DNA of 64,000 nucleotides from Clostridia bacterium (GTDB lineage: Bacteria > Bacillota > Clostridia > Oscillospirales > CAG-382): assembly GCA_017436675.1 (NCBI GenBank), contig JAFSCS010000031.1, forward strand, positions 1 through 64,000, written 5' to 3'. Positions 21,866 through 48,599 of the stretch are shown here, one piece after another (position 1 is the stretch's first letter; each line of letters begins with the position of its first letter). The translations under genes were made by a program, and so were the position numbers. The notes beneath the pieces were generated by a model, which saw only the letters and a list, made by a program, of their open reading frames with translations, had not been told where the DNA came from and did no database searches.

Positions 21866-21884
21866 AAGTACAATGTTTTAGTCA
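21858..21884. other. Left prophage attachment site (attL region)
   Basis: Host ABC coding sequence ends at about 21860-21866 and the integrase stop codon (minus strand) is at 21882-21884, so the junction lies in this short interval. Large serine integrases use a 2-base crossover core inside 40-50 bp sites. The exact core cannot be fixed without attR or an empty site. Confidence 0.7.
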
Positions 21885-23303
21885 AAAAAATATAATGCTT
21901 TCAGGAACGATTTGTTTATTTTCGTCTATACTAAACTCTCGTATAATCGTTCGCCAAAAAGCCTTTTTATTTTCTTTTGTCAGCTTTTCGTATATTCCTT
22001 TATAATCCGTCTCTAACAAACCTTTCAACGCATCAAGATCACGCTTGGGCGGTTCTTCGGTTATGTCGAGTGCTTTCAATTTCTTTTCGAGTTGGAAATA
22101 TTCGGTGTCATACTCCTCCTCGGATATGCGCCCCTTCCTAAACATCGTGTTTAGTCGTTCCATTTCTGCTTTAAGTTTTTCAGCTTTTAGGGCGTTGTTA
22201 TTTTTAGGTTGGCTTTCCTCAACGGTTTCGATTTTCAGCACTTCGTTATTTATATACTGCTCAAAGTTGTTTAATAATTGCTTCTCGATTTTTCGTTCGC
22301 TAATAGATTTAAGGAACGTACATATTTTTCGCGTTCTTGCAGCATTACAACGATAGGTGAACACATCGTACTTACCACTACTTTTAACGTAGTTCCCCGA
22401 TAGGTTGTTATGGCAACAAGGACATTTTATCAATCCGCTAAATATAAATGTGTGGTTTGGGCGAGACGGCATGCGCGAATTTCTTTTCTTAATATCTTGT
22501 ATGCGGTCAAACCTCTCTTTAGATATATACGGCTCTACATAATCGGGAACACCTTTGTACTCACCATATAGCAAAGTATCCGAAAGAAAATTGTTAAGTG
22601 TAGTCATAGTCATTTTTTTGCCGTACTTTAGATTGACATATCCCAACGTTGCTCCCTTGCTTTGGTGTTGCTCAAAGAAATCCAAAATATCAAGTGTCAT
22701 TTCTTCGTTTTCTTTGTCTTTAACGAGATACCTATTTTTCTTTTCGCCTTCTACTACCCACGGAAACAGAAAACATTGTGAGCCTGTTATGACTTGTTTG
22801 TTTTTTATCCGCATTTTGTTGTTGAACTTGATTCTTTTGGAGGTTTTTTTAGCCTCGTATTCCGCCATAGTCAAATAAATATTAATCTTAAAAGCCGCAT
22901 CGGGGTCTTCGGGGTCGAGGTCGGGTTCTTCAATAGAAATCCAAGAAACGCCTGCCGCGGTGAGTTGCTTTTGTGCAACGTAAAACTCGCCGACATTCCT
23001 AAAGTAGCGGTCAATACACTTAAATACAACAATATCAAATTTCCCAACCTTTGCGTCCTCTAAAAGCTCCGCAAGGGCTTTTCTTTTGCTGATTTCGAGT
23101 GTCGCACTTATTCCCTCGTCAACATATTCATCCACGGCTACAAGTTCATTTTCGGCAGCAAATTCATCGATGAGATTAAGCTGATCCGAAATTGTATATC
23201 CGTTTTTCTTTTGCTCATCGGAGGAACATCTCGCATATTTGGCTATGCGTATCACTCGGTTTCTCTCCTGATATCTCAATAGTTGTTTGTAATTTCCATA
23301 CAT
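21882..23303 (-). CDS. Large serine recombinase (phage integrase)
   Basis: A 473-residue site-specific recombinase that integrates and excises the prophage. The catalytic serine lies in YARCSSDEQ near residue 28, and the resolvase domain continues through DIVVFKCIDRYFRN. The recombinase domain follows, then a zinc ribbon with CPCCHNNLSG and a later cysteine pair (about 310-345). A coiled-coil segment rich in Lys and Glu (about 370-415) completes the usual plan of large serine integrases. It is the outermost phage gene, transcribed towards the left junction. GGAG stands before the ATG. Confidence 0.95.
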   Translation of the reverse strand: MYGNYKQLLRYQERNRVIRIAKYARCSSDEQKKNGYTISDQLNLIDEFAAENELVAVDEYVDEGISATLEISKRKALAELLEDAKVGKFDIVVFKCIDRYFRNVGEFYVAQKQLTAAGVSWISIEEPDLDPEDPDAAFKINIYLTMAEYEAKKTSKRIKFNNKMRIKNKQVITGSQCFLFPWVVEGEKKNRYLVKDKENEEMTLDILDFFEQHQSKGATLGYVNLKYGKKMTMTTLNNFLSDTLLYGEYKGVPDYVEPYISKERFDRIQDIKKRNSRMPSRPNHTFIFSGLIKCPCCHNNLSGNYVKSSGKYDVFTYRCNAARTRKICTFLKSISERKIEKQLLNNFEQYINNEVLKIETVEESQPKNNNALKAEKLKAEMERLNTMFRKGRISEEEYDTEYFQLEKKLKALDITEEPPKRDLDALKGLLETDYKGIYEKLTKENKKAFWRTIIREFSIDENKQIVPESIIFF

Positions 23304-23483
23304 TTCAATCGTTCTCCTTTGTTATTTTGTTGGTAACTGTAAAAAACAGTATCACCTCCCTTATACGACATATTTTTCTTCTGATATCAGTTTCTAACAA
23401 TTTCCGCTATTCGATTTTTGAAAATTGTCTTATAATAAAAATCGCAAGAACATAAGTTTGCCCCGGTGAAAGGAGAACCGCTT

Positions 23484-23594
23484 ATGCAAGAAAAGTACAT
23501 AGAAGAAATTGTAGAATTACTGAAAAACTGCAATGACGTGTCGTTACTTGATCTTATTTTTCAGTTGTTAAGAAAGCAAGCAACACAGGCTTAA
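23484..23594 (+). CDS. Small phage protein, 36 residues
   Basis: Begins with ATG after AAGGAGAACCGCTT. The protein is a short helical sequence containing EEIVELLKNCNDVSLLDLIF, resembling tiny proteins seen near repressors in Clostridia phages. Its last 41 bases overlap the end of the repressor gene on the other strand. A TATAAT near 23430 could serve it. The function is unknown. Confidence 0.5.
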   Translation: MQEKYIEEIVELLKNCNDVSLLDLIFQLLRKQATQA

Positions 23595-23946
23595 CGGCTT
23601 GTCGCTTTTCGGGGCTGAGTCTTGAAAGCATTTCAACCATAGAAAAAAGTTCATCATCCGATCTCATTTCAATAACGATGTCTGCGAGGACATCGTTCTT
23701 TTTTTGCGACAAAGTTCTTTCGCGTGGCACGTCGTAACCCCACAACCATAGTTCGGAAACGTTAAGCAATACCGAAAGTTTATGAGTAGCATCTTGTCGC
23801 GGTTCGACCGCTCCCGAAAGATATCTACTTATAGTGCTATGGCTTAACCCTGCCTCTTTTGCGAGATCAATTTGTTTTTTTCCTGCATCTTTCATAGCCT
23901 CGGCTATTCTTTCTGCCGTAGTTGCTACTCTTTCCATTTTTCCCAT
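23554..23946 (-). CDS. XRE-family phage repressor (CI-like)
   Basis: A 130-residue protein with an N-terminal helix-turn-helix (about residues 10-65: KQIDLAKEAGLSHSTISRYLSGAVEPRQ) and a helical C-terminal part without a peptidase domain. GGAGGTG lies before the ATG. Its promoter faces the cro-like gene, the standard lysis-lysogeny arrangement. Because no LexA-like protease part is present, self-cleavage is not expected. Release of repression may involve the ImmA-like peptidase at 37.87 kb, which is inference. Confidence 0.85.
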   Translation of the reverse strand: MGKMERVATTAERIAEAMKDAGKKQIDLAKEAGLSHSTISRYLSGAVEPRQDATHKLSVLLNVSELWLWGYDVPRERTLSQKKNDVLADIVIEMRSDDELFSMVEMLSRLSPEKRQAVKPVLLAFLTTEK

Positions 23947-42154: not shown

Positions 42155-42676
42155 ATGGACGAAAAAATCACTCAGATTATTAAGAAACCAACTCGCACCG
42201 ATCTTCCGAACGTCGTCGAACTCCCGGAAGGCGACAACAACAAATACACGACTTTCGCTCTTGCTATTATGCAACTACCGAAAATCGATGTTCGCGATCC
42301 GCAACAACTTCAAGCGAGGGTGATAGAGTATTTTCAACTCTGCGCCGACCACGATATGAAACCGGGTGTCGCTGCTGTTGGTCTTGCTATTGGGCTTGAC
42401 CGCAGACGACTATGGGAAATTAGGTCGGGTTCTTCTCGCAACTCGACTATACCGCAGGAATGTAAGGATATTATTATGGGAGTTTACGACTCTCTCGAAA
42501 CCTTGTGGGAGAGCTATATGATTAACGGCAAAATCAATCCCGTGTCAGGTATCTTCCTCGGCAAGAACAACTTTGGGTATCAGGATAAGCAAGAGTATGT
42601 GGTTACGCCGAATCAGATGCAGACCGCAGACCCAAAGGTTATTGAAGCGAAGTATGATGCGTTGCCTGAAGACTAA
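42155..42676 (+). CDS. Terminase small subunit
   Basis: A 173-residue protein. LQARVIEYFQLC, then GLAIGLDRRRLWEIRSG (helix-turn-helix) and the end IFLGKNNFGYQDKQEYVVTPN are typical of small terminase subunits that bind the packaging site. AGGAGGT stands before the ATG. The large subunit normally follows at once; here it is 4.3 kb away, with an accessory island in between. Confidence 0.8.
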   Translation: MDEKITQIIKKPTRTDLPNVVELPEGDNNKYTTFALAIMQLPKIDVRDPQQLQARVIEYFQLCADHDMKPGVAAVGLAIGLDRRRLWEIRSGSSRNSTIPQECKDIIMGVYDSLETLWESYMINGKINPVSGIFLGKNNFGYQDKQEYVVTPNQMQTADPKVIEAKYDALPED

Positions 42677-43528: not shown

Positions 43529-43566
43529 TGTTTTACCTCCATATAAAAACCACGCGCAGCGCGTGG

Positions 43567-43884
43567 TTATTTGATGATTCTATTTTCTAAATCACTTTTT
43601 GAATAGTTGCCCCATTTATCAAAAGCGCGTCCACCGTTTAGGACGTGGAAAAGCATTTGGTTCCAAAAGGCTTTGAAATTTTCGCCATTAAGCTCTTCGG
43701 CGGTGTGTTGTTCGTAAAATTCCGAATAATCGGCTTGCTCTGTGCTTGTATCCGCGTTACATATATAAATCGTTTCGCTTTCGTCGTCGGTTCGGAAATA
43801 TAAACCGCTTGCTAACTGTCCGTAATAAATATATATGCCTCCGCCCGTATAACACGCCGTCGCCGTTTTAATTGTGTGTGTCAT
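43567..43884 (-). CDS. Island protein 7, 105 residues
   Basis: AAGGAGCGGG lies before the ATG. Acidic protein with many Tyr and Thr residues; the end (DKWGNYSKSDLENRIIK) is helical. A CGCGC hairpin near 43550-43563 separates it from the next cassette gene. The function is unknown. Confidence 0.6.
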   Translation of the reverse strand: MTHTIKTATACYTGGGIYIYYGQLASGLYFRTDDESETIYICNADTSTEQADYSEFYEQHTAEELNGENFKAFWNQMLFHVLNGGRAFDKWGNYSKSDLENRIIK

Positions 43885-43896
43885 TGGTCCCGCTCC

Positions 43897-43971
43897 TTAT
43901 TTGTATTTTTTTGTTAATTCTAAAATTACGCCGATAGGAAAATATAAAACTGCGATAATGAAATATATCAC
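43897..43971 (-). CDS. Tiny membrane peptide, 24 residues
   Basis: GTG start overlapping the preceding stop, with GAGGGGGTG 5 bases upstream. The peptide is a single hydrophobic helix (MIYFIIAVLYFPIGVILEL) with a basic tail. It could be a toxin-like or holin-like peptide, but nothing proves it. Confidence 0.35.
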   Translation of the reverse strand: MIYFIIAVLYFPIGVILELTKKYK

Positions 43972-44183
43972 CGTTTCACCCCCTCAACAAACATTTTCAC
44001 ATGGTCTTTTATAAGCCCCTCATAGGTTTTTATAATTGTTTCGTATATTGTCGGCGTTTCGGGATCGATGATATACACCCTATAACGAGGATTTCCGTTA
44101 ATGTCGTTTTTTTCTCGTATGTAAAAATAATCTATTGCGATATGGTCTATTACTACCGTTTTTAAATCGTGATTTTTTGCCAT
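43968..44183 (-). CDS. Island protein 5, 71 residues
   Basis: Start chosen at 44183 because GGGAGGC lies just upstream; an in-frame start at 44198 is possible. Mixed alpha/beta protein with VVIDHIAIDYFYIREK. The end overlaps the tiny membrane peptide gene. Not recognised. Confidence 0.55.
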   Translation of the reverse strand: MAKNHDLKTVVIDHIAIDYFYIREKNDINGNPRYRVYIIDPETPTIYETIIKTYEGLIKDHVKMFVEGVKR

Positions 44184-44185
44184 TG

Positions 44186-44344
44186 TTAAGCCTCCCAAAA
44201 TTTAGTTATTACAACAAAAAAGTTATATATTGAGTGGGTCGGATTCGGTGTTATGTTGTCGGCGATGATATCGCAAAAGCTCAGAAACACCCACAGAAAG
44301 AAAAGCATTAAAACGATATAATAAATTCGTTCGGCTATTTTCAT
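44186..44344 (-). CDS. Island membrane protein 4, 52 residues
   Basis: GGAGGG stands before the ATG. One membrane helix (IYYIVLMLFFLWVFLSFCDII) with short tails. The ATGA overlap with the preceding gene points to coupled translation. The function is unknown. Confidence 0.5.
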   Translation of the reverse strand: MKIAERIYYIVLMLFFLWVFLSFCDIIADNITPNPTHSIYNFFVVITKFWEA

Positions 44345-44499
44345 TTTTTAACCCTCCGCTTTCTGATCGTTACGCCTCCGTGAAAAGCGGTGTTATATTC
44401 CATTTTTAAAAATATTGCATCCGCTCGGCTTTCGGTTTCGTCGATTTCCTCGCCTTGCCACATCAAAATATAAATGTCTTTCGTTTTACGCACGTACAT
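44341..44499 (-). CDS. Island protein 3, 52 residues
   Basis: GGAGGTAAAAAAAT stands before the ATG. The basic protein (MYVRKTKDIYILMWQGEE) overlaps both neighbours. Not recognised. Confidence 0.5.
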   Translation of the reverse strand: MYVRKTKDIYILMWQGEEIDETESRADAIFLKMEYNTAFHGGVTIRKRRVKK

Positions 44500-44887
44500 A
44501 TTTTTTTACCTCCTTGAAAAGCTCTTGATATATTAATTTTGTTAAAAGCGTTTCGGCTTGATCTTCTGAGTATTTCGCTTTTTCGCTTTGTGTTTCTTCG
44601 AGAACCGCCCCCAAGTCATTAACGGCAGAGCGGTTATAGTAGTAACAAGTATCCAACACGGACGGCAAGCCTTGACACCAATCTATAAAAGCGTGCAGCT
44701 CGTTATATTTGTAATATTGGAAGTCTTGCATAATACTGTATTTTTCAGAGCGGAAACAGTTATATATAAATTCCGCTATTTCGTGCCATTCGGTCGGCGG
44801 TGTTTCGGTGTAGCTCGTAGCGTCGAAATGTTCAATAATATAATTGCGTGTGTTTTCTCTTGCCTTTTTGCTATTCGTTTTTAACAT
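44486..44887 (-). CDS. Island protein 2, 133 residues
   Basis: The start at 44887 is supported by GGAGGATATCG. Helical protein opening with NSKKARENTRNYIIEHFD, containing WHEIAEFIYNCF and a Tyr-rich centre. Similar proteins appear in mobile elements of gut Clostridia as far as I recall, without a known role. It overlaps gene 1 of the cassette. Confidence 0.6.
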   Translation of the reverse strand: MLKTNSKKARENTRNYIIEHFDATSYTETPPTEWHEIAEFIYNCFRSEKYSIMQDFQYYKYNELHAFIDWCQGLPSVLDTCYYYNRSAVNDLGAVLEETQSEKAKYSEDQAETLLTKLIYQELFKEVKKYVRA

Positions 44888-45096
44888 TGTTCGATATCCT
44901 CCAAAGTTTGTTTTAAAAAGGTACATAAATTTTCGTATGATTCGGGGCACATAGGAACGGCAATAAAACGATTACCTACTTTTACAGAAATGTCGTTTAA
45001 TTCTTGTCCGTAGTCTAAGCGGTTCATAGTATCCGCTATTACTCTATCGGTGAAGAATTTAACCCCGGTCTTATTAAATGGCGTTTTGTGTTTCAT
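44881..45096 (-). CDS. Island protein 1, 71 residues
   Basis: First gene of the cassette, GGAGGATGCC before the ATG. FNKTGVKFFTDRVIADTMN and the closing ENLCTFLKQTLEDIEQ are helical. Not recognised. It lies directly downstream of the palindrome-controlled promoter. Confidence 0.6.
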   Translation of the reverse strand: MKHKTPFNKTGVKFFTDRVIADTMNRLDYGQELNDISVKVGNRFIAVPMCPESYENLCTFLKQTLEDIEQC

Positions 45097-45126
45097 TTGT
45101 TGGCATCCTCCGCTTGTTCGTGTTAT

Positions 45127-45373
45127 TCAAGATTAATCTTGATACTTTTATTATATAAGATTAATCTTGAAAGTCAATAGTTTTTGATAAAAAAATCAAG
45201 ATAAATCTTAACAAAAATATGGTGTCGTTTTTGTGTACTTTGACGAACAATAATAAACCTGATCGAACGATATTTTTATAGTGGGGATGGGGTAGCATCC
45301 CGGATGGACCCGCCCCGGTGATGTGTCTCAGCAGAGAAAAAAATAAAAAGAGAAATTTCAAGATAGGTCTTGA
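45127..45373. promoter_or_regulatory. Divergent promoters with four 16-bp palindromes
   Basis: TCAAGATTAATCTTGA (45127-45142), TAAGATTAATCTTGA (45156-45170), TCAAGATAAATCTTAA (45196-45211) and TCAAGATAGGTCTTGA (45358-45373) share TCAAGAT-N2-ATCTTGA. The minus promoter (TTGACT, 16 bases, TATAAT) has one palindrome between its boxes and another at the start site. The plus promoter (TTGACT near 45371, 17 bases, TACCAT) is overlapped by the fourth. This looks like repression of both directions by one protein, probably the regulator at 45427. Confidence 0.75.
45275..45335. other. GC-rich structured patch in an AT-rich promoter region
   Basis: GGGATG-GGGTAG-CATCCC forms a hairpin near 45279-45301, followed by CCGGATGG and CCGCCCCGG. 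It stands out from the surrounding AT-rich DNA. It could be a recombination site for the neighbouring resolvase or a packaging signal; neither is shown. Confidence 0.35.
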
Positions 45374-45426
45374 CTTTTTCTTTCGAATGTGCTACCATAT
45401 AGCCATAGCGAACAAAGGAGGAAAAC

Positions 45427-45702
45427 ATGAGCATTAACGAAATCATTTTAGATGTCATTGAAAACACAACGAACGAAGAAGGCAAGCGCATACGCCAAGT
45501 AGAGATAATCGAACGGATAAAAGACAAATTCGGCTTAGAAGTATCATCGGCTGCGTTTTCCGATAGGCTAAAAAACAAGAGTATGAAAACGAACACAGTT
45601 ATAGAGATATTAGATGTGTTGGGTTACGAGTTAGTAGCTCGCCCCAAGAAAGGTGACAGACGCGAGTATGTTGCCGAACGAGGAGAGGGGCGCAGTAAGT
45701 AA
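45427..45702 (+). CDS. Small helix-turn-helix regulator of the island
   Basis: A 91-residue protein, ATG after AAGGAGGAAAAC. VSSAAFSDRLKNKSMKTNTVIEILDVLGYELVARPKKG resembles short XRE-like regulators of mobile elements. The upstream palindromes and the promoter overlap suggest autorepression and control of the divergent cassette. It shares its stop region with the resolvase gene. Confidence 0.65.
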   Translation: MSINEIILDVIENTTNEEGKRIRQVEIIERIKDKFGLEVSSAAFSDRLKNKSMKTNTVIEILDVLGYELVARPKKGDRREYVAERGEGRSK

Positions 45703-46328
45703 TGGCGAAATATTTTTCTGTCCGTGTGTCGAGTAAAGACCAAAACTTAGCTCGTCAATTAGCAGAGGCGCAGAAATACGGAATCCCCAAAGAAAACATA
45801 TTTTGCGACAAGATAACGGGTCGAAAAAAAGACCGCCCCGAATACGAGCGTATGAAATCGCTATTAAAAAGGGGCGACGAGGTATATTTTAAAGAACTCG
45901 ACCGAATTGGTCGTGCTAAATATTTAATTAAGGACGAGCTTGAATGGTTTAAAGAGCGTGGCGTAATAGTGCGTATATTAGATATACCGACAACACTTAT
46001 GGAAGTTCCAAAGGGGCAAGAGTGGGTGTTTGAAATGGTGCATAACATTCTCATTGAGGTGTTGGCAACGATAGCCGAGCAAGAGTGGGAAAAGACGAAG
46101 AAAAGACAAAGCGAAGGCATAGCCTCTATGCCTATTGTGAATGGTCGCAGAGTAAGCGCAAAGACGGGTCGCGGTTTTGGACGCGAGAGAAAATGCCCCG
46201 ATAATTTTGAGGAAGTGTATAACCGACAACAGAGTGGCGAGGTTTCAATGAAAGAGGCGTTGCAGTTGGTTGGGGTTGGTAGAACACGTTGGTATGAATT
46301 AGTTAAGGAGAATCGCTGCCGAGCGTAA
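45702..46328 (+). CDS. Small serine recombinase (resolvase/invertase type)
   Basis: A 208-residue protein. The catalytic serine is in FSVRVSSKDQNLARQL, and KELDRIGRAKY and LEVLATIAEQEWEKTKKRQ complete the catalytic domain. The tail from about residue 150 holds a resolvase-like helix-turn-helix (MKEALQLVGVGRTRWYELV). It is clearly different from the large integrase at 22 kb and may mobilise the island or invert or resolve DNA. It overlaps the regulator gene by 1 base. Confidence 0.88.
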   Translation: MAKYFSVRVSSKDQNLARQLAEAQKYGIPKENIFCDKITGRKKDRPEYERMKSLLKRGDEVYFKELDRIGRAKYLIKDELEWFKERGVIVRILDIPTTLMEVPKGQEWVFEMVHNILIEVLATIAEQEWEKTKKRQSEGIASMPIVNGRRVSAKTGRGFGRERKCPDNFEEVYNRQQSGEVSMKEALQLVGVGRTRWYELVKENRCRA

Positions 46329-46348
46329 ACGGAGAAAGGAAAAGATTA

Positions 46349-46912
46349 GTGAAATGCCCTAAATGTAACTCGGAAAACATTAAGTTACAAGCCGAGGAAG
46401 TTAAGCCAAAATTAACAGGTCCGCTCTGCTTATTGTTTTCAGGAATCGCTACGATAGTATTAGGTTTTGTAGGAACGATAATTGGTGCAATAATAGGTCT
46501 TATAATTGGCTTGATATTATCCTCGCTTCTGCCGTCGGGAAGACAATCGATAGTGGTTTGTCAAAACTGTGGATATGTTTCTCAACCCATTAACAATCAA
46601 AACTTGGGAACTAAAATTCACCCATTGTTTTGTTCGCAAAGCGAGAGCAATCTAACAATCGTAAGAAACGATATTGTAAAAGGAACAATCATAGTTATTA
46701 GAATTTGTGTTGATGGTGGATTGCCCTTCGACATCAGCGACAACTCAACTACATATTTAAAACTTGCCGATGGTTCACACGTTTTAACCTACGAGCAAAT
46801 CAATGGTTTCGGCAAAAAGAAAAATAAAGGGCAACTAAATATTGATATAGATAGAGTAAATGAAATTACAATATCTTTTTCACAACAAGGCTTAATTGTA
46901 AATCAGAAATAA
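46349..46912 (+). CDS. Membrane protein with zinc ribbon
   Basis: A 187-residue protein from GTG after GGAGAAAGG. CPKCNSENIK at the start pairs with CQNCGYVS near residue 74. Between them is a glycine- and isoleucine-rich membrane hairpin (IATIVLGFVGTIIGAIIG and following). The C-terminal half is a beta-rich soluble domain. It belongs to the island's plus-strand arm. The function is unknown. Confidence 0.6.
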   Translation: MKCPKCNSENIKLQAEEVKPKLTGPLCLLFSGIATIVLGFVGTIIGAIIGLIIGLILSSLLPSGRQSIVVCQNCGYVSQPINNQNLGTKIHPLFCSQSESNLTIVRNDIVKGTIIVIRICVDGGLPFDISDNSTTYLKLADGSHVLTYEQINGFGKKKNKGQLNIDIDRVNEITISFSQQGLIVNQK

Positions 46913-46919
46913 AATAAGC

Positions 46920-46965
46920 AGAGCGCCAAAGAGCGCCTACCTTAAATGGTGGGCGCTCTATTTTT
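46920..46965 (+). terminator. Terminator at the right end of the island
   Basis: AGAGCGCC pairs with GGCGCTCT (about 46930-46962), followed by ATTTTTATTTT, just before the large terminase ribosome site. Confidence 0.75.
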
Positions 46966-46982: not shown

Positions 46983-48599
46983 ATGGAAATACCCGTAATT
47001 GAGAGAATTAAAAGATTACCGCAGCAGACGGAGGAAAGTTTGCGAGACGCTTTCAGCGTGTTAATGAGCGTTGAAAATCGAAAATTAGCAGACGAATATA
47101 TTAAATGGGTCCGTAGCGAAGCGAAAAAGATACGCTCCGCCGATATGTACGATCTGATAAAGAACACATATTTTTATGCGGGTCAGTATAGTCTCGATGA
47201 TTTCATGATAGGAATGGAATGGAATCGAGAACCACAAGCGAGGTTTTGGTTGCCACGTCGAAAAGTGTTGGAGGGCAAACACGGAATAGCGACGGAGATA
47301 CAAGAGTTTATGAACGACCCCGAAGCGTTGTTTTTGGGATTCAGTTTGCCTCCCGGCACGGGTAAGACAACGCTTATAAAGTTTTTGATAACGAGCATAA
47401 TCGGTAGCGATCCACAATCGGCGAATATGTATGTTTCGTATTCGGATGGTATGACGAAAATGATGCTCGATAGCGTGAGATCGATGATAACGGATACGAG
47501 CGAGTATTGTTTCCACGATATATTTCCGGGATTGGGTATGCCCGATATATCGGCAGAGTATAAGACGCTGAGCTATCGTCGTGCGGGTGATTTCCCTACC
47601 CTTGGCTTGATTTCATTGGGTGGTTCAGTAACGGGTCGTACAAGAGCGAACAAGTATTTGATAACGGACGACTTGGTTAAGAACAAGGAAGAAGCTCGAA
47701 GCCCCGAACGGCTCGCGAAATTGTATGACGATTACACGGCGACGCTCACCACTCGTATGATTGGTGATAGGGTTAAACAGATAATGTTGGGAACTCGTTG
47801 GAGTGCTTACGACCCTATCGGTCGAATGGAGGCAGAACACGGCAACGACCCACGATATAGGTTTATCGCTATTCCCGTGTGGGATGAAAACGAGGTATCG
47901 AATTTCGAGTATGAACACCCCGATAGATATACGACCGAGAAGATCAGGGATATTAAAGCCACGATAGATAGCGCGGATTTCGAGTGTTTGTTTATGCAAC
48001 ACGGAGTTGAAAAAGAAGGTTTGGCGTTCGCCCCGGAGAGTTTGAGATTTTATAACGGCGTTCTCCCCGATGGCGAACCCGATAATATTGTGTTTGTCAA
48101 CGACGTTGCGTGGGGCGGTGGCGATAGTTTGAGTATGCCCGTGGCGTATATTTATGGCGGCGACGTGTATATTCACGATTGGATTTTCGACCGCAGAGAT
48201 AAGAGTTTTACGAAGCCGAGAGTGGTCGGTAAGATATTACACCATAAGATTAAAATGGGTCAGACCGAGGCGAATAACGGTGGTGAAGAATACTCCGACG
48301 ATGTTTATCGGATCTTGAAAGAGGAACACGGATATAGCATAAATATGAGTCACAAGAAAGCGCCTACCACGATGGCGAAGCTGACGAGGATAGAGCAACA
48401 CGCGCCGACGATCCGAAATTATTATTTCCGTGATAGTAGTTGCCGTGACGATGATTATAAAAGAGCGATGTCGGAATTGACGAGTTTTTCGTTTACCGCG
48501 AAGAACCTCCACGATGATGCTGCCGATAGTTTGGCTATGCTTGCGGGGTATATTTCGGAGCGACCGAAGACGATAACGGTGGCGAAAAGACCGCTTTAG
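46983..48599 (+). CDS. terL: Terminase large subunit
   Basis: A 538-residue packaging motor. The ATPase part has Walker A LPPGTGKTT near residue 123 and Walker B KYLITDDLV near 220, with TRWSAYDPIG as coupling motif. The nuclease half begins near 345 with VNDVAWGGGDSLS, and includes NNGGEEYSDD and LHDDAADSLAM acidic residues. AGGAGGT precedes the ATG. It is separated from the small subunit by the accessory island. Confidence 0.93.
   Translation: MEIPVIERIKRLPQQTEESLRDAFSVLMSVENRKLADEYIKWVRSEAKKIRSADMYDLIKNTYFYAGQYSLDDFMIGMEWNREPQARFWLPRRKVLEGKHGIATEIQEFMNDPEALFLGFSLPPGTGKTTLIKFLITSIIGSDPQSANMYVSYSDGMTKMMLDSVRSMITDTSEYCFHDIFPGLGMPDISAEYKTLSYRRAGDFPTLGLISLGGSVTGRTRANKYLITDDLVKNKEEARSPERLAKLYDDYTATLTTRMIGDRVKQIMLGTRWSAYDPIGRMEAEHGNDPRYRFIAIPVWDENEVSNFEYEHPDRYTTEKIRDIKATIDSADFECLFMQHGVEKEGLAFAPESLRFYNGVLPDGEPDNIVFVNDVAWGGGDSLSMPVAYIYGGDVYIHDWIFDRRDKSFTKPRVVGKILHHKIKMGQTEANNGGEEYSDDVYRILKEEHGYSINMSHKKAPTTMAKLTRIEQHAPTIRNYYFRDSSCRDDDYKRAMSELTSFSFTAKNLHDDAADSLAMLAGYISERPKTITVAKRPL

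Follow-up and report, generated by a model that had tools for sequence, protein, structure and literature searches.

Which protein reads a cluster of short palindromes placed between two divergent operons of a prophage, and what would it control? The window, by which we mean the whole stretch of DNA analysed (64 kb), is host chromosome carrying a prophage. Within it, an intergenic region of 330 bp (45097-45426) separates a leftward gene for a 71-residue protein from a rightward gene for a 91-residue helix-turn-helix (HTH) protein. A preliminary description of this locus had reported the sequence TCAAGAT-N2-ATCTTGA four times between the two genes, and had proposed that a dimeric regulator, most obviously the adjacent HTH protein, represses both transcription units. 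All four sites are indeed present between 45127 and 45373, but only one is a perfect copy, the other three being near-perfect with one, one and two mismatches.

The operator array and its cassette

The placement of the sites on both promoters is as originally described (Table 1). Against these four real sites, 3000 dinucleotide shuffles of the 330-bp region gave a mean of 0.004 sites and a maximum of 1 at two or fewer mismatches. A search of the rest of the assembly (1.54 Mb, 54% complete) returned 24 scattered places at the same threshold, and the three matches with a single mismatch all fell within long open frames; the array itself is unique in this assembly.

The "island" of the preliminary description proved to be a prophage cassette (43548-46959) located between the genes for the small and large terminase subunits (terS and terL), the latter of which we take to be such from its sequence and position. 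The cassette is bounded by a terminator-like hairpin at each end, and its GC content is 36-40%, compared with 42-47% in the flanks. The leftward operon comprises six small genes, of which one resembles TreK, the terminal-repeat protein of staphylococcal phage, and one matches PHROG 11100. The rightward operon encodes the HTH protein, a small serine resolvase of 208 residues, whose start (45702) overlaps the stop of the HTH gene, and a 187-residue protein. A PADLOC search returned no matches. Elsewhere in the prophage, two genes that we recognised from sequence, one resembling a large serine integrase and the other a CI-like HTH gene divergent from the early genes, likely constitute the integration and repressor module (21882-23946).

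Searches with the HTH protein of the window gave no hit that passed the Pfam cut-off and none in PHROGs. Its structural model, of moderate confidence (pLDDT 76.5), folds into four helices with a beta hairpin at the C-terminus, and the better fold matches are XRE-like HTH domains, including EspR, the N-terminal domain of TP901-1 CI, and HigA, with a best E of 0.09. Relatives of the protein match HTH_3/HTH_37, above the curated cut-off in L012 and L013 and below it in the others.

Between operators 3 and 4 lies a conserved non-coding element that is common to 13 aligned cassettes (the window, L008, L046, L048, L050, L051, L053, L054, L055, L060, L066, L075 and L079), including cassettes that have no HTH gene. 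It contains GGGG, followed after approximately 25-30 bases by GGGGTGATGCSTCTCNGCAGAG and then by an A-rich tract immediately before the rightward promoter. The element had no Rfam matches. It may be a cos site or some other packaging or replication element; among the contigs checked, none ended at the GC-rich element, as they might at a cos site.

Table 1. Features of the cassette and of its prophage setting, in window coordinates
Feature	Position	Strand	Remarks
Large serine integrase-like gene (presumed)	21882..23303	-	recognised from sequence
CI-like HTH gene (presumed)	23554..23946	-	recognised from sequence
Terminase small subunit, left flank	42155..42676	+	Pfam GP3_package 9e-8; PHROG 606
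Terminator-like hairpin, leftward operon end	43548..43568	-	9 pairs and T tail
105-residue protein, last leftward gene	43567..43884	-	homologue in L051 (70%)
76-residue protein, TreK-related	43968..44198	-	22.4 bits (Pfam cut-off 22); homologue in L079 (48%)
154-residue protein	44486..44950	-	PHROG 11100, E 6e-10
71-residue protein, first leftward gene	44881..45096	-	homologues in L008/L047 (75%), L079 (37%)
Operator 1	45127..45142	none	TCAAGATTAATCTTGA, exact 7-2-7 palindrome; over leftward start region
Leftward promoter	45150..45177	-	TTGACT-16-TATAAT; -35 at 45172-45177, -10 at 45150-45155; consensus 11/12
Operator 2	45155..45170	none	ATAAGATTAATCTTGA, 2 mismatches; fills leftward promoter spacer
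Operator 3	45196..45211	none	TCAAGATAAATCTTAA, 1 mismatch; upstream of leftward -35
Conserved non-coding element	45283..45351	none	GC-rich and A-rich
Operator 4	45358..45373	none	TCAAGATAGGTCTTGA, 1 mismatch; overlaps rightward -35
Rightward promoter	45370..45398	+	TTGACT-17-TACCAT; -35 at 45370-45375; consensus 9/12
HTH protein, 91 residues, proposed autorepressor	45427..45702	+	weak fold matches
Small serine resolvase, 208 residues	45702..46328	+	Pfam Resolvase 3.9e-21; PHROG 125 2.4e-33
187-residue protein, last rightward gene	46349..46912	+	CxxC (zinc-ribbon-like) start, hydrophobic stretch; weak matches only
Terminator-like hairpin, rightward operon end	46930..46959	+	12 pairs and T tail
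Terminase large subunit (presumed), right flank	46983..48599	+	named from sequence and position

Related cassettes, their operators and their cargo

Direct similarity searches with the window HTH protein yielded almost no matches, and relatives were therefore sought by way of the resolvase and the large terminase subunit. The resolvase search identified L008 (71% identity), in which this cassette occupies an equivalent position but has ACAACAA-N2-TTGTTGT operators, and further cassettes were found in L012 (an Oscillospiraceae MAG), L039, L046 and L013 (a Tenericutes MAG). The large-terminase search retrieved 39 viral loci, many of them in terS-cassette-terL order. A gene for an HTH protein of 72-93 residues immediately precedes one for a small serine resolvase in 15 loci (the window and 14 others), and across these loci the two genes overlap or abut. 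The resolvase is modular: the window protein shares 87% of the N-terminal part and 51% of the C-terminal domain with that of L008, and 37% and 74%, respectively, with that of L054.

Most of the 15 loci have four to five operators in the same places, the exceptions being L078, with only two rightward sites, and L013, where the sites are weak. Including the window, 14 loci (13 of the 14 others) have a leftward array; an operator fills the leftward promoter spacer in every one of these, and operators 1 and 2 are spaced 27-30 bp apart in 13 of the 14. An operator is present on the rightward promoter in all 15 loci. The operators are 16 bp long and mostly palindromic, and their sequence is private to each locus or clade. 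About eight classes could be distinguished: TCAAGAT (window, L054, L078), ACAA-type (L008, L012, L039, L046), AACAC/CACACG (L079, L048), ACGCG (L050), ATC..GAT (L051, L053), ACGGATA (L066), TCAGATA (L073) and ACTTRT (L013). Repeat and palindrome counts clearly exceeded those of shuffled sequences in the window, L008, L012, L039 and L046; in the later loci the operators were identified by eye, and the shuffle statistics cover part of the 15 loci. In L013, four ACTTRT-NN-AYRAGT sites occupy the right places but are weak relative to shuffles, and are suggestive of an operator array.

Several candidates were set aside. L005 encodes an HTH relative (37%), and its apparent repeats were not above shuffles; L040, L042 and L007 gave HTH-like matches without a cassette. 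Three cassettes in the same terS-terL slot (L055, L060 and L075) have no HTH gene, and in these the resolvase gene directly follows the promoter. They carry at the leftward promoter a non-palindromic repeat, approximately ACCCWAAAYAAACA, that differs from the operators.

Four distinct leftward operons of the relatives (L008, L053, L060 and L066) carry the antirestriction gene ardA (PF07275, E 2e-26 to 4e-30), in each case as the first or second gene; it is also present in L068 and L077, which were counted with L053, and in L059 and L061, which were counted with L060. One of these carriers, L060, is an HTH-less cassette. The window's own cassette has no ArdA under its array, its leftward genes include no known counter-defence gene, and no known anti-CRISPR was found among its leftward or rightward genes in Pfam, PHROGs or NCBIfam. 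Some of the window's small genes recur in the related cassettes, the 71-residue protein in L008 and L079, the 76-residue protein in L079 and the 105-residue protein in L051. By analogy with the relatives, the window's leftward operon may have a counter-defence or host-takeover function.

Other cargo was also observed. GP88-family genes (PF17338), in place of ArdA, lead the leftward operons of L051 (2584-3228, minus strand) and L054 (2471-3112, minus strand). The last leftward gene of L039 (1531-2274, minus strand) is FtsK/SpoIIIE-like (PHROG 1358, E 1e-62), which is odd among small cargo. Downstream of the HTH-resolvase pair of L013 (5195-6054) is what we take, from its sequence, to be a SocA/Panacea-type antitoxin with a PemK-like toxin.

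Which protein reads the operators

The nearest relatives of the window HTH protein, in L054 (47%) and L078 (44%), both keep TCAAGAT sites, and L054 does so even though the catalytic half of its resolvase is only 37% identical to that of the window. Using hand-curated operator sites, we found significant Mantel correlations of operator distance with the distance between whole HTH proteins (r 0.34-0.49), between HTH recognition helices (r 0.40-0.57) and between resolvase C-terminal domains (r 0.46-0.63), the last being as strong as those of the HTH protein or stronger. The HTH and resolvase C-terminal correlations each persisted after controlling for the other. Co-change of operators and HTH protein is directly observed, as are the sites, their placement and the persistence of this arrangement across related phages; the simple rule that operators follow the HTH protein and not the resolvase failed in the Mantel tests. 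Both proteins correlate with the operators, and therefore correlation alone cannot decide which of them is the reader.

Only two kinds of evidence favour the HTH protein, namely discordant pairs of loci and the length of the footprint. L066 has 66% of the resolvase C-terminus in common with L008, yet their operators are unrelated (distance 0.90) and their HTH proteins are 16% identical, whereas L066 and L073 share 46% of the HTH protein and have similar operators (distance 0.43) with a common GATATTTC core. Similarly, L046 shares 76% of the N-terminal part of the resolvase with L079 but not the operator; L046 and L039 have the same HTH type and the same operator. As to the footprint, conservation among the operator copies within loci reaches 0.69-0.98 over positions 3-8 bp away from the centre, drops to 0.48 at 9 bp and is approximately 0.33 from 12 bp outward, where chance is approximately 0.27. 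Such a footprint, of about 8 bp to either side (16 bp), suits the dimer of a small HTH protein, and is short for a resolvase dimer. Dimer sites of serine resolvases span about 26-30 bp and have conserved outer half-sites; here, conservation is near background by 10-12 bp. Counting against the HTH protein as the reader, the three cassettes that have no HTH gene (L055, L060 and L075) still bear repeats, though different ones, on their leftward promoters.

These observations bear on two readings that involve the resolvase. According to one, the palindromes are res-like sites through which the adjacent resolvase autoregulates the divergent promoters, as does the Tn3/gamma-delta resolvase. This would agree with a resolvase gene following the HTH gene in 15 of 15 loci and with the covariation of the resolvase C-terminal domain and operators, which holds even where the catalytic half has been swapped, as between the window and L054. 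We nevertheless consider it very unlikely given the short footprint and the two pairs, L066/L008 and L046/L079, that share resolvase sequence without sharing the operator. In addition, the resolvase homologues examined that have no HTH neighbour show no such arrays, with at most three repeated sites upstream and none with four or more. Alternatively, both proteins may use the array, the HTH protein for repression and the resolvase C-terminus to recognise the same sites or ones that overlap them, perhaps for recombination or for lifting repression. That both track the operators, each when controlled for the other, and that their genes overlap or abut, are compatible with such sharing, which is very unlikely in view of the L066/L008 mismatch; the dual correlation may reflect neighbouring genes being inherited together within phage lineages.

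Control regions of the CI/Cro type have divergent promoters with several operators, and the array recalls them, as would be expected if it were part of the main lysis-lysogeny switch of the prophage. But the CI-like HTH gene and the large serine integrase gene are 21 kb from the array, no site with two or fewer mismatches is found there, and the array itself is part of the accessory cassette flanked by terS and terL; on the location of the CI-like repressor and integrase we rejected this reading, the chances of which are remote. That the palindromes are chance AT-rich repeats with no regulatory role is most improbable: the intergenic region is AT-rich and the half-sites partly overlap the promoter consensus, but none of the 3000 shuffles produced even two sites, and the same geometry recurs with different sequences in 13 other loci, a comparison by which this reading is already contradicted.

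We regard it as probable that the palindromes serve as operators for the 91-residue HTH protein, which probably binds them as a dimer and would repress both divergent operons of a prophage cassette of counter-defence type. In this the comparison of loci supports the preliminary proposal on both counts, the repression of two divergent units by a dimeric regulator and the choice of the adjacent HTH protein, with which the operators appear to change in step.

A predicted switch and its known counterparts

Related phages keep the layout, and in each the operators match the phage's own regulator, so the array looks like an on/off switch. The binding, repression and timing described here are inferred from sequence. 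HTH repression would extend both to the leftward operon, with its small proteins, and to the HTH protein's own operon, which includes the serine resolvase. Upon entry of the phage into a new cell both promoters would fire, because no repressor would be present, and host-takeover or antirestriction proteins would be made in a burst. As the repressor accumulated, it would bind within the leftward promoter, at the spacer and start-region operators and with assistance from the upstream site, and would also fill operator 4 on the promoter of its own gene, where autorepression is predicted; both promoters would then be shut down.

More broadly, the comparison places the array in a regulatory chassis that recurs among phages and diversifies between them. 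It is possible, though we hold this view only tentatively and with more doubt than confidence, that the terS-terL slot of a broad phage group, including phages in Oscillospiraceae- and Tenericutes-labelled MAGs, houses a conserved chassis of HTH autorepressor, serine resolvase and divergent counter-defence operon, in which repressor-operator pairs diversify like immunity groups, resulting in counter-defence heteroimmunity. Diversification of the operators would be selected because the repressor of a resident prophage would, without it, shut off an incoming phage's counter-defence genes just when they are needed. If so, the array and chassis would serve as a locator of counter-defence genes in this phage group, any terS-terL gene under such operators would be a counter-defence candidate (many here have no assigned function), and the silencing of incoming phages' counter-defence genes by resident repressors would become directly testable. 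The operator/HTH pairs also lend themselves to deciphering the code by which a small HTH family achieves its specificity. A limited literature search found no description of this arrangement, which does not in itself prove novelty.

Parts of the arrangement have counterparts in known systems. Like the CI/Cro regions of lambda and TP901-1, the array has several operators over divergent promoters and an XRE-like HTH regulator, but it has only one regulator and lies in the terS-terL accessory cassette, away from the prophage repressor locus. The resolvase-res regions of Tn3/gamma-delta similarly have several dimer sites between divergent promoters beside a small serine resolvase gene; in the window, however, the sites are 16 bp, fitting a separate HTH protein, a transposase is absent, and across loci the operators do not follow the resolvase in discordant pairs. 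The cassette resembles phage morons in having its own promoters and terminators at an accessory place between conserved phage genes, and in its lower GC content relative to the flanks, and differs from them in that a dedicated regulator serves two divergent operons and in that its position recurs in many phages. With the ArdA antirestriction genes of mobile elements, the likeness is the early position of ArdA in four of the related leftward operons, although the window cassette is without one.

The anti-CRISPR-associated (Aca) regulators offer a further comparison. For Aca proteins it is established that strong promoters, with one or two inverted repeats in or near the core promoter, are unrepressed upon entry and that autorepression follows as the HTH protein builds up (PMC9410906); a structure of Aca2 has been reported (PMC8434428). 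As with Aca1 and Aca2, the locus belongs to a mobile element and encodes a small HTH protein (91 residues, with a modelled HTH core and weak XRE fold matches), has an inverted repeat within a core promoter (operator 2, in the leftward spacer) with copies nearby, and is predicted to autorepress strong early-type promoters before counter-defence genes. The differences are the regulator's position, divergent from the cargo and not downstream in the same operon; the number of operators, four to five compared with one or two inverted repeats per Aca promoter; the serine resolvase partner; the ArdA cargo of the relatives; and an HTH protein that matches no named family. Aca genes accompany an anti-CRISPR gene, as a rule within a single operon, whereas here the cargo is divergent, and because no anti-CRISPR gene was found the protein was not filed as an Aca. 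On our best reading, although membership of the family is unproven, the 91-residue protein would work in the manner of an Aca autorepressor.
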